From an uncultured Verrucomicrobiota bacterium (GTDB lineage Bacteria > Verrucomicrobiota > Verrucomicrobiia > Limisphaerales > UBA9464), in the NCBI GenBank assembly GCA_903880005.1, contig CAIRNV010000030.1, positions 1-56,101 of the forward strand: a stretch of 56,101 nt of DNA, in the 5' to 3' direction. Of the stretch, positions 48,531 through 55,425 are shown one piece after another. The notes under the pieces were generated by a model, which was not told where the DNA came from, did no database searches, and saw nothing but the letters and a program-made list of their open reading frames with translations. How positions within the stretch are numbered: position 1 is the stretch's first letter; each line of letters begins with the position of its first letter. Made by a program: the position numbers and the translations under genes.

Positions 48531-48635
48531 CCGCTGGGCGGCGGATGCCGAACAGGCCATCCCTTGGCCAAGCACATCCTCCGTTCCTCGCTCAGGTTGC
48601 TTGAGGTGCGTGCGAGGTTCTGGCGTCCTTCGCCC

Positions 48636-50132
48636 ATGATTCCCGCCCGGGTGCGACGTTTGCTGCGCTGGCTCTGCCTTGTCGGATGGATGCTGCGCGT
48701 CGCGTCGCCCTCCCATGCGGCCGAGGGGGCGCTGGCGGGTTCGCGACCCAACATCGTGGTGATCATCACGGACGACCAAGGCTGGGGGGAATTGTCCTGC
48801 CATGGGAACCCGGTGCTGCGCACGCCCAACCTCGACCGCTTGCACGCCGAGTCCCTTCGCCTCACCCGCTTTCATGTCAGCCCCACGTGCGCGCCGACGC
48901 GAGCGGCGTTGATGACCGGCCGACATGAGTTCCGGTCCGGCGTCACCCACACGGTGAACGAGCGGGAGCGACTCGACCCACGCGCGACCCTGCTGCCCGA
49001 GTTGATGCGTCGCGCGGGCTATTCGACGGGCATCTTTGGCAAGTGGCACCTGGGGGACGAGGACGAGTACCAGCCTGGCCGACGGGGCTTCGAGAAGACG
49101 GTCATCCACGGGGCAGGGGGCATTGGGCAGACGTTCCCGGGCAGTTGCGGCGACGTCCCGGGCAACACCTATCACGACCCGTGGGTTCGTCACGATGGCC
49201 GCTTCGAGAGGCGGAAGGGCTATTGCACCGATGTCTTCGTCGATGCCGCGTGGGAATGGATCGAGGAGGCCTCGCGGCGTCGCCGGCCCTTCCTCGCGTG
49301 GATCGCGCCCAACGCGCCCCATGATCCGTTCGTGAGCCCCGGGGACGAATGGGAGAGGCCGTACCGCGACCGGGGTTTGCCCCCGGTGGCCGTGCCGTAT
49401 TACGCGATGATCGCGCACCTGGACGCCGCCGTGGGGCGATTGATGGCGCGCTTGGATGCCGCGGGCCTTGGGCGGGACACGTTGGTCGTGTTCATGACGG
49501 ACAACGGCCATTCGGTGCCGGGCATCTTCAATGGCGGCATGCGGGCCATGAAGGGAACCGTGTACGAGGGCGGCATCCGGGTGCCGAGCTTCTGGCGTTG
49601 GCCCGGAAGGTTGCCTTCGGGGGTCGATGCCCCGCCATGGACGGCTCACGTGGACGTGTTGCCAACGTTCCTCGGGCTGGCGGGCGCGCGGGTTCCCGAC
49701 GGGGTGGAGGGGCGCTCGTTGCTGCCGTTGCTCGGGAACCCCGCCGCGCCTTGGCCGGGCCGCCTCTTGTTCTCCCACCTGGGACGCTGGAAAACGGGAG
49801 GGGCGCGCGAGGCCGCCCACCAGCAGGGAGCGGTGTCCGACGGTCGCTTCAAGCTCGTCAACGACTCGGAGCTGTACGACGTCGTGGCGGATCCCGGCGA
49901 ATCCACGAACCGCATCCAGGATTTGCCGGCGGTGACGGCGCGGCTGCGGGCGGCGTATCGAGGCTGGTGGGATGGCATCCTTCGCGACGCCCAGCTCAAT
50001 GAATGGACGATGGGCCCCCTTCTGAACCCTTATGCCGCGGCGTTTTCCGATTCGCTCGGCGTCCTGCCCTCGACGGAGGAGCAGCTGCGCATGGATCCCA
50101 CGCGGAAGTTCATGGTGGATCGGGCGTGGTAG
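48636..50132 (+). CDS. Exported sulfatase (formylglycine Cys type)
   Basis: Role: hydrolyses a sulfate ester outside the cytosol, probably on a sulfated glycan. Seen: 498 residues from ATG at 48636; TTG at 48564 is an in-frame alternative. Signal peptide (LLRWLCLVGWMLRVASPSHA); metal-binding DD at 46-47 in ITDDQGWGEL; signature SPTCAPTRAALMTGR with Cys85, to be converted to formylglycine; FGKWHLGD; MTDNGHSVPG; KGTVYEGGIRVP. All active-site motifs are intact. No sulfatase-maturating enzyme in the window. Closest in style to arylsulfatase-A-like enzymes; substrate not predictable. Confidence 0.93.
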   Translation: MIPARVRRLLRWLCLVGWMLRVASPSHAAEGALAGSRPNIVVIITDDQGWGELSCHGNPVLRTPNLDRLHAESLRLTRFHVSPTCAPTRAALMTGRHEFRSGVTHTVNERERLDPRATLLPELMRRAGYSTGIFGKWHLGDEDEYQPGRRGFEKTVIHGAGGIGQTFPGSCGDVPGNTYHDPWVRHDGRFERRKGYCTDVFVDAAWEWIEEASRRRRPFLAWIAPNAPHDPFVSPGDEWERPYRDRGLPPVAVPYYAMIAHLDAAVGRLMARLDAAGLGRDTLVVFMTDNGHSVPGIFNGGMRAMKGTVYEGGIRVPSFWRWPGRLPSGVDAPPWTAHVDVLPTFLGLAGARVPDGVEGRSLLPLLGNPAAPWPGRLLFSHLGRWKTGGAREAAHQQGAVSDGRFKLVNDSELYDVVADPGESTNRIQDLPAVTARLRAAYRGWWDGILRDAQLNEWTMGPLLNPYAAAFSDSLGVLPSTEEQLRMDPTRKFMVDRAW

Positions 50133-50661: not shown

Positions 50662-52017
50662 ATGGCCCGGCAACCTTCCCCCGACGGCATGCACGGGCCC
50701 GCCTCCTCGTTGAGCCGGCGCGCGGCCCTTCGGCGGATCACCCTCGGTGGCGCGGGGGCCGGGGTGGGCATGGGTGCCTGGACCGCGTCGCCGGTCGTCG
50801 CCGCGCCGGCGGATGCATCCGCGCCGCCTCGGGGGCAACCCATCCCCGCCTTGCCCGAACCCGGGCTTCGCGCCCGCGATCCCGAGGCCTACTGGACGCG
50901 GGTGCGGCGCGAGCAGTTCCTCCTTCCCGACGACCGGGCGTTCCTCAATCCCGGCAGCCTGGGCGTGATGCCCCGCCCGGTCTTGCAGGCGGTGTTCGAC
51001 TCCCTGACGCGCGGCGCCGAGTACCCCTCGGACGACGTGCCGCGATGGGGCTACGAATCCCTCGAGCCGGAACGTGCGGAGATGGCGTCCTTCCTCGGCT
51101 GCGGCCCGGACGAGCTCGCGTTCACGCATAATTGCACCGAGGCCATGAGCTTCATCGCGGCCGGGCTCGACTTGAAGGCTGGGGATGAGGTGCTCACCAC
51201 CAACCAGGAGCACGGCAGCGGCATCTCGTGTTGGCGCGTCAAGGCCGCGCGCGTCGGGGTGGTCGTCCGCGAGGTCGAGATCCCCCTGGCGCCGCGCGAG
51301 CCCGCCGAGTTGCTGGAACGTCTTCAGGCCGCGATGGGGCCGCGCACGCGCGTGCTCAGCTTCAGCGGCGTCACCAGCCCGACCGGGCTGGTCCTGCCCT
51401 CCCGCGAGATCTGCGAGGCGGCGCGCGCCCGGGGCATCCTCACGGTCCTCGATGGAGCGCACATGGACGGCCAGATGCCCGTGAACCTCCGGGACCTCGG
51501 CTGCGACTACTTCGCGGGAAGCCCCCACAAGTGGCTCTTCGCGCCCGCCGGTTGCGGCCTGCTTTATGGGAGGGGCGACGCCCTCGATCGCCTGTGGCCC
51601 ACCGTGGCAACCGGCGGATGGGACAACCGCGCCGGGCTCAAGTCCGCGCGCTTCATGATGATCGGCACCAACAACCGCTCCACCATCGATGGCATGATCG
51701 CCGGCGTGCGCTTCCTCAAGGCCCTCGGCGAGGAGGCCGCCTACCAGCGCCAGCAGGAGTTGTCCCGGCACGTCCTCCATGCCGCACGGCAACGGGCCTA
51801 CATCGAGACGGTCACGGCCGATGACCCCCGTCTCTACCGCGCGATGGTCTCGATCCGCTTCAAGCCCGAGAAGCTCGAGCCCCTCTGGAGCGAGATGCGC
51901 AGCGCAAACATCGGCGTCCTCAGCGGTCAACGCATCCGCATCTCCTCCCACGTCCACACACGCAAGGCCGACATCGACCGCTTCTTTGCCGTGTGCGACC
52001 GGGTCCTGCGGGCCTGA
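50662..52017 (+). CDS. Tat-exported class V aminotransferase-fold PLP enzyme (isopenicillin N epimerase-like)
   Basis: Seen: 451 residues; ribosome site AAGGAAGGAAAG inside the ridA end. Twin-arginine signal SLSRRAALRRITLGGAGAG; class V fold starting DRAFLNPGSLGVMPRPVL; FTHNCTEAMSFIA; Asp264 and His267 in VLDGAHMDG; PLP lysine Lys290 in FAGSPHKWLFAPAG. Known: the class includes isopenicillin N epimerase, cysteine desulfurases and kynureninase. A folded PLP enzyme fits Tat export with its cofactor. Reaction unknown; a racemase, beta-lyase or epimerase would each yield intermediates RidA could clear. Confidence 0.9.
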   Translation: MARQPSPDGMHGPASSLSRRAALRRITLGGAGAGVGMGAWTASPVVAAPADASAPPRGQPIPALPEPGLRARDPEAYWTRVRREQFLLPDDRAFLNPGSLGVMPRPVLQAVFDSLTRGAEYPSDDVPRWGYESLEPERAEMASFLGCGPDELAFTHNCTEAMSFIAAGLDLKAGDEVLTTNQEHGSGISCWRVKAARVGVVVREVEIPLAPREPAELLERLQAAMGPRTRVLSFSGVTSPTGLVLPSREICEAARARGILTVLDGAHMDGQMPVNLRDLGCDYFAGSPHKWLFAPAGCGLLYGRGDALDRLWPTVATGGWDNRAGLKSARFMMIGTNNRSTIDGMIAGVRFLKALGEEAAYQRQQELSRHVLHAARQRAYIETVTADDPRLYRAMVSIRFKPEKLEPLWSEMRSANIGVLSGQRIRISSHVHTRKADIDRFFAVCDRVLRA

Positions 52018-52480: not shown

Positions 52481-53794
52481 ATGGTGCCGGGGATGGGTGA
52501 TGAAGCAGGCGTTGAACAAGGCCCGGAAGCGGGGCCATGGCGAGCCACGCGGGAGGCGGGCTTGGATCGATGGCGTGGGTTCGCGCCCAGGGCGTCTCGC
52601 TACGCGGCGTTGCGCAATCGCGTGGAGCCCGGGCACCCGCATGTGTCACGGCTCTCGCCTTGGGTGCGCTCTCGCTTGGTCACGACCGAGGAGTTGGTGG
52701 GGACCTTGTTGTCCACGCAGCGGTTTGGGGCGGTCGAGAAGCTCCTCCAGGAATTGGTCTGGCGGGATTACTGGAAGGGATGGCTGGAGTGGCGCCCCGG
52801 CGTTTGGCTTGCCTACCAGGACGCCCTGCGCCGCGTGCTCCGGGAAGGGCCGGCCTCGGTGTTGGATCGGGCCGACGCGGTCATGGCCGGCCGCGGGGGC
52901 GTGGCGGTCATGGATCGGTTTGCACGGGAGTTGATGGAGACCGGCTATCTCCACAACCACGCGCGGATGTGGTGGGCGGGCTATTGGTGTCACGTGGAGC
53001 GGCTGCCGTGGGTGTTGGGGGCGGACTTCTTCTACCGGCACCTGCTGGACGCCGACCCGGCGAGCAACACGCTCGGATGGCGTTGGGTGGCGGGGCTTCA
53101 GACGCGCGGCAAGGCCTACCTTCCGCGCCGTTCCAACCTCGAGCGCTACGGCGCGCCCGAGTGGTTGTCCGACACGCGGGGCATCGAGCGCTTGGACGAC
53201 CACGTGGTGACGGCATGCCCCTTGGAGTCGGAGGCCCCGGCGGCCCGGGTTCGTTGGGCCTCCCTGCCCGAGGTGCCGGAGGTGACGCCCGGGCGGTGGG
53301 GCTTGTGGGTGCATGGCGAGGACCTGACGCCGGAGTTGTCGGGGCTTGGGCGCTTCAGGCCGGGGTTGATGGTGACGGTGATGGACGCCCGCGTGCTGCA
53401 GGGGCATCGGCCCTCGGCCCTGAGGCTGGATTGGATGAAGGAAGGACTGGCGGACGCCCGACGACGGGCGGCCGCGCATTGGGGTTGCCCGGCGCTGCAA
53501 GTCGAGGCGGGCACCGAAGGGTTTCCGGAGGCCTTGGCCCGACTGGGATCTGCCCATGGGCTGGAGGGCTGGGTGGCGATGCGGCCGTCGGTCGGGCCCC
53601 TGGGGGATGCGGTGGAGGGCATCGAGCACGCGCTCGCGCGCGCAGGCCTCGGGATGAAGTGGTGCCGTCGTCGATGGGACGAGGCGATGTGGGCCCATGC
53701 GCATGCGGGGTTCTTTCCCTTTTGGGAGAAGGTGGCCCCGAGGCTTGCGGAGGCGGCGCGAGGCAGTGCGACGCAAGGGGATCTGGGCTTGTGA
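52481..53794 (+). CDS. Photolyase/cryptochrome FAD-domain protein with the alpha/beta domain placed C-terminally
   Basis: Seen: 437 residues from ATG at 52481 (52493 possible; longer starts run into repeats). Residues about 21-230 match the FAD-binding half of photolyases: SRLSPWVRSRLVTTEEL, LLQELVWRDYWKGWLEW, ELMETGYLHNHARMWWAGYW, LLDADPASNTLGWRWVAGLQ. Residues about 273-437 read like the N-terminal alpha/beta antenna domain of photolyases: WGLWVHGEDLTPEL, MVTVMDARVLQGHRPSALRL, PSVGPLGDAVEGIEHAL, HAGFFPFWEKVAPRL. Domain order is thus reversed. The stop overlaps the next, normally ordered photolyase gene (GTGA). Known: FAD-first relatives exist in databases as uncharacterised proteins. Role in light sensing or DNA repair is inferred. 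Confidence 0.82.
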   Translation: MVPGMGDEAGVEQGPEAGPWRATREAGLDRWRGFAPRASRYAALRNRVEPGHPHVSRLSPWVRSRLVTTEELVGTLLSTQRFGAVEKLLQELVWRDYWKGWLEWRPGVWLAYQDALRRVLREGPASVLDRADAVMAGRGGVAVMDRFARELMETGYLHNHARMWWAGYWCHVERLPWVLGADFFYRHLLDADPASNTLGWRWVAGLQTRGKAYLPRRSNLERYGAPEWLSDTRGIERLDDHVVTACPLESEAPAARVRWASLPEVPEVTPGRWGLWVHGEDLTPELSGLGRFRPGLMVTVMDARVLQGHRPSALRLDWMKEGLADARRRAAAHWGCPALQVEAGTEGFPEALARLGSAHGLEGWVAMRPSVGPLGDAVEGIEHALARAGLGMKWCRRRWDEAMWAHAHAGFFPFWEKVAPRLAEAARGSATQGDLGL

Positions 53795-55425
53795 AGGAGG
53801 CGCGCGCGGCACGGGTGCAGGTGGTGTGGTTCAAGCGGGACCTGCGGGTGCGCGATCATGCGCCGCTGGCGCAGGCCGCCGCCGCCGGCCCGGTGCTGGC
53901 GTTGTACCTGTTCGAGCCGGAATGCGTTCGGTCGGAGGATTGGGACCCGGTGCACTCGGAGTTCATCGCGGATTCGCTCCGCGCGTTGGAGGCGGCGTTG
54001 GCGGAGCGGGGTGTTCGTCTGGTGACACGCCTGGGCGAGGCCGTGGAGGCGCTGGAACGGCTGCGTGGCGAGGTGGGGATTGACGCGCTGTGGTCGCATG
54101 AGGAGACGGGCAACCGGGTCACGTTTGACCGCGACGTGCGGGTGGCCCGCTGGTGCCAAGCCCATGGGATCCGGTGGGTGGAGGTGCGCCAGGACGGCGT
54201 CGTGCGACGTTTGCGGGACCGGAACGGATGGGCGGAACGGTGGAACGAGAGGATGGGGTCGGCGTTGACGCCCGCCCCGGGAAGGATGCGCGATGCGGCC
54301 CCGATGGGCATGGCCAGCGTGGGGATCCTGGGGGCCCGTGACCTGGGGTTGGGTGCATGCGTGGGACGGGAGATTCAAGCCGGGGGCGAGGTTCGGGGCA
54401 TGGAGACCTTGGAGAGCTTCCTGGCCGGTCGCGGCGTGGCCTATCGCACGGACATGTCGAGCCCGGTGACGGCATGGGAAGGGTGCTCCCGGCTCAGCCC
54501 CTACCTTGCATGGGGCTGCGTGTCGCTGCGGACGGCGCACCAGGCCGCGACGTCCCGGTTGGAGGCGCTTCGGCTGGAGCGGACGGCGGGGGGCGAGGTG
54601 GACGGGCGTTGGTGGGGATCCTTGGCGAGCTTCCAGATGCGGTTGCGATGGCATTGCCACTTCATGCAGAAGCTGGAGGACGAGCCGCGCATCGAGTTCG
54701 AGAACTTTTGCCGGGCCTACGACGGCCTGCGCGAGCCCTTCACGGAGTCCCAGGAGGGGCAGGCGCGCCTGCGCGCATGGGTGGAGGGGCGGACCGGCTT
54801 CCCCATGGTGGACGCCTGCATGCGGGCGGTGCGGGCGACGGGTTGGCTCAACTTCAGGATGCGGGCCATGGTCATGAGCTTCGCCAGCTACGCCCTCTGG
54901 CTGCACTGGAGGCCCACGGCCGTGCACCTGGCCCGGTGCTTCCTCGACTTCGAGCCCGGCATCCACTTCAGCCAGGCCCAGATGCAGTCGGGCACGACGG
55001 GCATCAACACGTTGCGCATCTACTCGCCCGCCAAGCAGGTGGTGGACCACGACCCGCGTGGGGTCTTTATCCGGCGATGGGTGCCTGAGCTGGCGGGCGT
55101 CCCGGACGCGATGCTGCCCGCGCCCGAGAACATGACGTTGTCCCAGCAGGACCGTGCGGGCTGCGTCGTGGGCTTGGATTTTCCCCGTCCGGTGGTGGAT
55201 GTGCGGCGGGCCGTGGCGGACGCGAAGGAGCGGATGCAAGGCGTGCGACGCGGGGCCCTCGCGAGGGAGGAGGCGAGGCGGGTCTATCTGCGCCACGGGA
55301 GCCGTCGGCGTCCGACGCACCGGGGTGGCGACTCGGACGCCCGCCTGAGGGAAGGGCTTGGCAAGGATGCGGGCGAGGCTTCCGGGCCGGGTGACACGTG
55401 GGTTCAGGGGACGTTGTTTGGTTAG
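53791..55425 (+). CDS. Deoxyribodipyrimidine photolyase/cryptochrome family protein
   Basis: Role: light-driven DNA repair or blue-light signalling. Seen: 544 residues from GTG at 53791 in a GTGA overlap. N-terminal alpha/beta domain VVWFKRDLRVRDHAPLAQAA, HSEFIADSLRALEAALAERG, ALWSHEETGNRVTFDRDVRV; FAD domain from about 215: GCSRLSPYLAWGCVSLRTAH, RWHCHFMQKLEDEP, GFPMVDACMRAVRATGWLNF, RMRAMVMSFASYALWLHW, GINTLRIYSPAKQVVDHDP. The N-rich TGWLNFRMR replaces TGYMHNR of class I CPD photolyases, as in a distinct proteobacterial-type cryptochrome/photolyase clade. A tail of about 35 residues ends QGTLFG, resembling a sliding-clamp-binding peptide. Confidence 0.92.
   Translation: MKEARAARVQVVWFKRDLRVRDHAPLAQAAAAGPVLALYLFEPECVRSEDWDPVHSEFIADSLRALEAALAERGVRLVTRLGEAVEALERLRGEVGIDALWSHEETGNRVTFDRDVRVARWCQAHGIRWVEVRQDGVVRRLRDRNGWAERWNERMGSALTPAPGRMRDAAPMGMASVGILGARDLGLGACVGREIQAGGEVRGMETLESFLAGRGVAYRTDMSSPVTAWEGCSRLSPYLAWGCVSLRTAHQAATSRLEALRLERTAGGEVDGRWWGSLASFQMRLRWHCHFMQKLEDEPRIEFENFCRAYDGLREPFTESQEGQARLRAWVEGRTGFPMVDACMRAVRATGWLNFRMRAMVMSFASYALWLHWRPTAVHLARCFLDFEPGIHFSQAQMQSGTTGINTLRIYSPAKQVVDHDPRGVFIRRWVPELAGVPDAMLPAPENMTLSQQDRAGCVVGLDFPRPVVDVRRAVADAKERMQGVRRGALAREEARRVYLRHGSRRRPTHRGGDSDARLREGLGKDAGEASGPGDTWVQGTLFG

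Follow-up and report, generated by a model that had tools for sequence, protein, structure and literature searches.

Close to the end of a 56,101-nucleotide stretch of DNA from an uncultured Verrucomicrobiota bacterium (contig CAIRNV010000030.1; hereafter the window), two photolyase-family genes overlap on the same strand. In the original prediction, they were described as a mirror-image pair, with the FAD domain ahead of the alpha/beta domain in the first gene and the usual order in the second. The locus therefore raises the question of whether the domain order of the first gene is really reversed and, if so, what kind of enzyme each gene encodes and why the two are found together.

Organization of the locus

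Gene 1 (52481..53794, + strand) is an open reading frame of 437 aa that begins with an ATG at 52481 and ends with a TGA at 53792-53794, although its real start may lie a few codons later, at the ATG at 52493. We describe it below as an inverted-order photolyase of the NewPHL/SPL type. Gene 2 (53791..55425, + strand) encodes 544 aa, from a GTG at 53791-53793 to a TAG finishing at 55425, and its product is a normal-order cryptochrome/photolyase-family protein with a substituted active site. The GTG start of gene 2 falls within the TGA stop of gene 1, forming a 4-bp overlap, GTGA (53791..53794, + strand), through which the two genes are likely to be translationally coupled. On all these points (reading frames, coordinates, strand, and overlap) we agree with the original prediction.

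The frame of gene 2 remains open across nearly all of gene 1 (window positions 52516-53790), so that a 962-aa shadow ORF starts at 52537. On the opposite strand, a 765-aa ORF spans both genes. With these additional frames, automated gene calling could place the gene-2 start wrongly. The upstream neighbors, at 48564-50132 and 50662-52017, appear by eye to encode a secreted sulfatase and a class V aminotransferase-like protein, and on the same inspection neither has an obvious connection to light or DNA repair.

Domain order and C-terminal fold of gene 1

The FAD-binding core of gene 1 (residues 89-213; 52745..53119, + strand) is recognized by Pfam FAD_binding_7 with an E-value of 8e-19, but the match spans just positions 2-126 of the 203 in the profile. 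The PDB matches of this half of the protein are photolyases. Residues 273-437, on the other hand, match no family above the curated Pfam or NCBIfam cut-offs, PF00875 included, and so the alpha/beta domain that was originally placed there had been called from reading the sequence. In NCBIfam, all photolyase/cryptochrome matches fall below the cut-off for both genes.

Structure prediction gave a clearer picture. The AlphaFold2 model of full-length gene 1, built from 76 aligned sequences, has a mean pLDDT of 93.5 and a pTM of 0.91. Its helices extend from residue 24 to 238, the FAD domain beginning near residue 24, and they are followed by five strands alternating with helices (273-278, 296-301, 338-342, 363-367, and 391-395). 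When the C-terminal domain was modeled alone, the same elements were obtained with a pLDDT of 91.8. Together with the Foldseek and hhalign results given below, the models delimit a predicted alpha/beta domain at residues 273-426 (53297..53758, + strand). In a Foldseek search of the PDB with this domain alone, photolyases and cryptochromes occupy ranks 1-7 and most of the top 50; the match to 1owl, for instance, has an E-value of 5e-4 over 159 columns and a TM score of 0.57 (query). The search with the full-length model aligned essentially the FAD part and is thus uninformative on how the two domains dock.

Could the C-terminal domain instead be an unrelated Rossmann or HUP domain, similar to those of universal stress proteins (USPs) or short-chain dehydrogenases (SDRs), that was gained by fusion? 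USP structures do come second in the Foldseek list, after the photolyases, and a PDB sequence search with the C-terminal profile returned no photolyase and only weak SDR and PPE matches (for SDR, an HMM E-value of 0.007), which shows that the relationship to photolyases is remote. Nevertheless, direct profile comparison makes this explanation very improbable. When a profile of 75 C-terminal domains was aligned to one of 59 photolyase N-terminal domains, hhalign gave a probability of 92.3% over 100 colinear columns (E 5.5e-7, a value that refers to a single comparison), and 88.7% when only classic photolyases were used. The same domain scored 0.3% against USP, 0.5% against ETF, and 0.3% against SDR, with a maximum of 0.9% across 35 decoy families. 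It was 0.2% when the alignment was run in reverse, and the FAD half of gene 1 likewise gave 0.2%. An SDR identity was dropped on the basis of its score. In addition, we scanned 4637 ORFs with an HMM of the photolyase N-terminal domain, and the sub-threshold matches with E <10 were limited to the C-termini of two gene-1 orthologs.

Judging from the predicted structure and the profile comparison, then, the C-terminal domain of gene 1 is homologous to the N-terminal, antenna-type domain of photolyases, and the domain order is truly reversed. The central proposal of the original prediction is in this way borne out by confident models, by a Foldseek list headed by photolyases, and by a profile match far above controls that all stayed below 1%. 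A C-terminal region folding unlike an antenna domain, which would have spoken against that proposal, is not what the model contains. In the literature, engineered circular permutation was found in optogenetics papers only.

Class assignment of gene 1

Using E. coli PhrB (NC_000913) as the reference for 76 members of the gene-1 family, we found that E274, W277, R278, N341, R344, M345, W359, D372, D374, N378, W382, and W384 (E. coli numbering) are kept in 75-76 of the 76. In gene 1, these positions correspond to E91, W94, R95, N159, R162, M163, W177, D190, D192, N196, W200, and W202, and in class I/III photolyases they bind FAD and the dimer. The equivalents of W359 and W382 are invariant and form a Trp dyad, while the position of the distal W306 is not occupied by Trp.

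The architecture is not a chance event of one genome, given that orthologs are present in 34 of 96 related genomes and that relatives turn up on at least 591 stretches of the GTDB contigs. The orthologs are 39-65% identical, and most align over both the FAD and the C-terminal domains. Among the best 80 of these at least 591 relatives are sequences from Verrucomicrobiota, Alpha- and Gammaproteobacteria, Actinomycetes (Frigoribacterium), and a Candidatus Eremiobacterota MAG, and the family includes members of the Roseobacter group such as Ruegeria TM1040, Tateyamaria, Jannaschia, and Tropicimonas. In RefSeq, they are labeled simply as "FAD-binding domain-containing protein".

The inverted photolyase architecture as such is already published, since NewPHL and SPL are the same type. 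NewPHL reportedly goes back to Emmerich et al. 2020 (Nucleic Acids Res 48:12845), and SPL to Xu et al. 2021. Three articles (PMC13274461, PMC9426592, and PMC8948257) describe NewPHL as having an inverted topology, repairing cyclobutane pyrimidine dimers (CPDs) in single-stranded DNA, and carrying a Trp dyad. According to these articles, the enzyme has been characterized in D. shibae and M. mesophilicum (PMC9426592), and that of D. shibae, with "a mere Trp dyad", is poorly photoreduced (PMC8948257). SPLs, as Xu et al. 2021 are cited in PMC9649867, are photolyases without an alpha/beta domain, a description that counts against our placement of gene 1. Gene 1 resembles this class in having the FAD domain first and a small C-terminal domain last, as well as in its Trp dyad and CPD-photolyase residues, and we found no feature that would set it apart. 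It is also similar to the NewPHL/Phr7 branch (Phr7 of Prochlorococcus), which lacks an Fe-S cluster and is wide in bacteria.

A second reversed type has been described in marine Synechococcus and Cyanobium, namely the Phr4/Phr5 and Phr6 proteins (Haney et al. 2022, PMC9426592), which contain an Fe-S cluster and were proposed to be (6-4) photolyases. Their domain order is reversed like that of gene 1, and they are the nearest relatives of the NewPHL-type Phr7, but it is most improbable that gene 1 belongs with them. Phr4 and Phr6 have four Fe-S cysteines, whereas no cysteine quartet is conserved across the 76 gene-1 members; the commonest Cys columns are filled in 23-31 of 76, and gene 1 itself (P0001) has Cys in just one of them. 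Furthermore, the C-terminal domain of Phr5/Phr6 is recognized as a photolyase domain by InterPro, while that of gene 1 is not recognized by Pfam. Phr4/5 is also one enzyme split over two adjacent ORFs, in contrast to our locus, where both genes code for full two-domain proteins. Given the retained catalytic residues, the Trp dyad, the lack of an Fe-S quartet, and the inverted order, gene 1 appears best filed as NewPHL/SPL, an assignment made by comparison with published descriptions of the class. By analogy with this class, it is probably a CPD photolyase that acts on single-stranded DNA.

A normal-order partner with a substituted active site

Gene 2 has an antenna-type DNA_photolyase domain (PF00875, E 1.7e-23) at residues 11-135 (53821..54195, + strand), followed by FAD_binding_7 (PF03441, E 1.3e-61, positions 2-202 of the 203 in the profile) at residues 282-483 (54634..55239, + strand), and this succession of domains places it in the cryptochrome/photolyase superfamily. 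The residue table shows that the usual FAD-binding residues are kept in its family. The residues that contact the CPD, however, are not the ones expected of a class I CPD photolyase (Glu274, Asn341, Met345, Asn378, Trp384, and the Trp triad). All 27 of the 27 members analyzed carry the same replacements, E274R, N341F, M345A, N378H, and W384M (E. coli numbering), and all have lost W382 and W306 while retaining W359.

Its place within the superfamily is unusual as well. The best PDB matches are the DASH-type proteins 6kii and 1np7, and the eight-group classification of PMC9178010 includes a "DASH-like" group, yet gene 2 scores 144.5 bits against NCBIfam TIGR02765, the Cry-DASH model, for which the cut-off is 317. 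In a tree of FAD domains, gene 2 forms a clade of its own, far from gene 1; support within its clade is moderate, and the gene-1 clade has a support of 100. This separation led us to reject tandem duplication as the source of the pair. It also qualifies the description of the pair as mirror-image, which holds insofar as one domain order is reversed and the other normal but does not extend to two versions of one protein, as the clades are distant and the active site of gene 2 has been remodeled.

It might be argued that gene 2 is a plain photolyase and that the two genes simply share an operon for UV repair. RefSeq names its homologs "deoxyribodipyrimidine photo-lyase", and operons of paired photolyases are known; PMC9649867 describes a UV-B-inducible operon of Synechococcus sp. 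PCC 7335 in which two photolyase-family genes overlap as they do here. One partner in that operon was modeled on a class II photolyase of the PhrSph98 type, and its CPD pocket, like that of the type, still has Glu, Trp, Asn, and Met. Gene 2 differs in this respect, and for that reason we rejected a PhrSph98-type (class II-like) assignment for it. With five pocket residues replaced alike throughout the family and two of the tryptophans gone, we regard the plain-photolyase explanation as doubtful.

Several observations on homologs of gene 2 deserve mention. On plasmid pDAETH-2 of Deinococcus aetherius (L214:5022-7343), one of them has a C-terminal uracil-DNA glycosylase (UDG) domain (PF03167). 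The fusion is annotated merely as "uracil-DNA glycosylase", an annotation shared by the gene-2 matches on other Deinococcus plasmids. Cytosines within dimers deaminate to uracil, and for this reason a UDG fusion would fit DNA repair; the arrangement in Deinococcus points to a possible role of the family in that process. In Tritonibacter and Salinivibrio, a tiny DUF2256 gene lies directly 3′ of the gene-2 homologs (L213:4142-4279 and L217:5613-5774). Finally, the genome under study contains a second gene-2 paralog (G000:C305:741-2363, L069), which is 72% identical, has no adjoining gene 1, and adjoins a divergent MetH-like reading frame.

Conservation of the pair

Among 85 non-redundant gene-1 loci, counted when the pair was visible or when at least 1.8 kb was present on both sides, 24 have a gene-2 homolog next to gene 1, a figure that is slightly too high because loci at contig ends were included if they contained the pair and excluded if they lacked it. 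The two genes are on the same strand in all 24, with gene 2 downstream in 20 and upstream in 4; they overlap by 1-4 bp or are separated by short gaps, mostly below 200 bp. The carriers belong to Verrucomicrobiota and several proteobacterial orders, and among them are Thiocapsa, Moraxellaceae, Telmatospirillum, Acidocella, Rhodospirillaceae, Marinicaulis, Silicimonas, and Alsobacter. A search of plasmids added Persicobacter (Bacteroidota), outside the 24, in which the genes are back to back. The pair is thus conserved in distant bacteria, as the original prediction had suggested checking, and its occurrence in both gene orders and several phyla argues for repeated selection for the linkage. In the 96 related genomes, a close gene-2 homolog was found in 20, and gene 1 was present in 20 of these 20, although two were judged from fragments at contig edges and the co-occurrence is confounded by kinship.

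At the remaining 61 of the 85 loci, gene 1 has no gene 2 in its neighborhood, so it can evidently do without an adjacent partner. In 20 gene-1 loci we observed an amine-oxidase/renalase-like FAD oxidoreductase, sometimes adjoining gene 1 (L134:7507-8454, and also L073, L108, L148, and L084). This protein is a candidate flavin reductase for a poorly photoreduced enzyme.

From the coupling, the original prediction had suggested a complex or a joint light response. One possible explanation for the linkage is an obligate heteromeric assembly of the two proteins, with gene 2 acting as the antenna, electron donor, or light sensor of gene 1. The overlap of the genes and their constant co-orientation, in either order and across phyla, would be compatible with such a complex, and a helper is plausible considering the poor photoreduction that PMC8948257 attributes to the D. 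shibae NewPHL and its dyad. We nevertheless consider an obligate complex unlikely, as gene 2 is missing from the vicinity of most gene-1 loci, homologs of gene 2 occur alone or fused to UDG, and the genome studied here has its second, unlinked paralog.

A possible mechanism

The interpretation that we favor, and that we hold to be highly probable, is that gene 1 is a NewPHL/SPL photolyase with a displaced alpha/beta domain and that gene 2 is a co-translated partner in which the pocket has been replaced. The scheme that follows combines the computed architecture, fold, homology, residues, and linkage with the NewPHL activity reported in papers, and from these we infer all the chemistry in this organism, any complex, and the role of gene 2. 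The N-terminal helical domain of gene 1 would hold FAD and the CPD pocket, while the displaced alpha/beta domain would probably pack on the FAD domain, closing the flavin pocket and substituting for the absent last third of FAD_binding_7. Blue light would excite the reduced FAD, which would pass an electron to the cyclobutane pyrimidine dimer, probably within single-stranded DNA, and the dimer would split.

Gene 2, made by co-translation, would bind FAD via the usual residues and have a normal antenna domain. Since both its CPD pocket and its tryptophan chain have been replaced, it is probably not a standard CPD photolyase. From its residues, its probable role would be to act on a different lesion, to assist DNA repair, or to serve as a sensor. 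More tentatively, the pair may constitute an undescribed two-part photorepair unit found in several phyla, pairing an active CPD photolyase for single-stranded DNA with a co-translated partner whose CPD pocket and Trp chain have been rebuilt to handle another lesion, reduce flavin, or sense light.

Implications for the family

Three of the results described here, namely the evidence for homology of the C-terminal domain, the conserved pairing, and the uniform replacement of the gene-2 active site, are possibly unreported, and the recurrence of the pair in distant bacteria seems to have received little attention. In NewPHL/SPL enzymes, the C-terminal (Z) domain has so far been regarded either as a cap or as a short domain of atypical kind, and SPLs have been described as possible ancestors of all photolyases. 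If this domain is instead a displaced alpha/beta domain, NewPHL/SPL enzymes would be rearranged two-domain photolyases, and the argument for a primitive one-domain ancestor would be weakened. The recurrent pair, for its part, singles out gene 2 as a protein with a uniform and unexplained active site whose function is directly testable.
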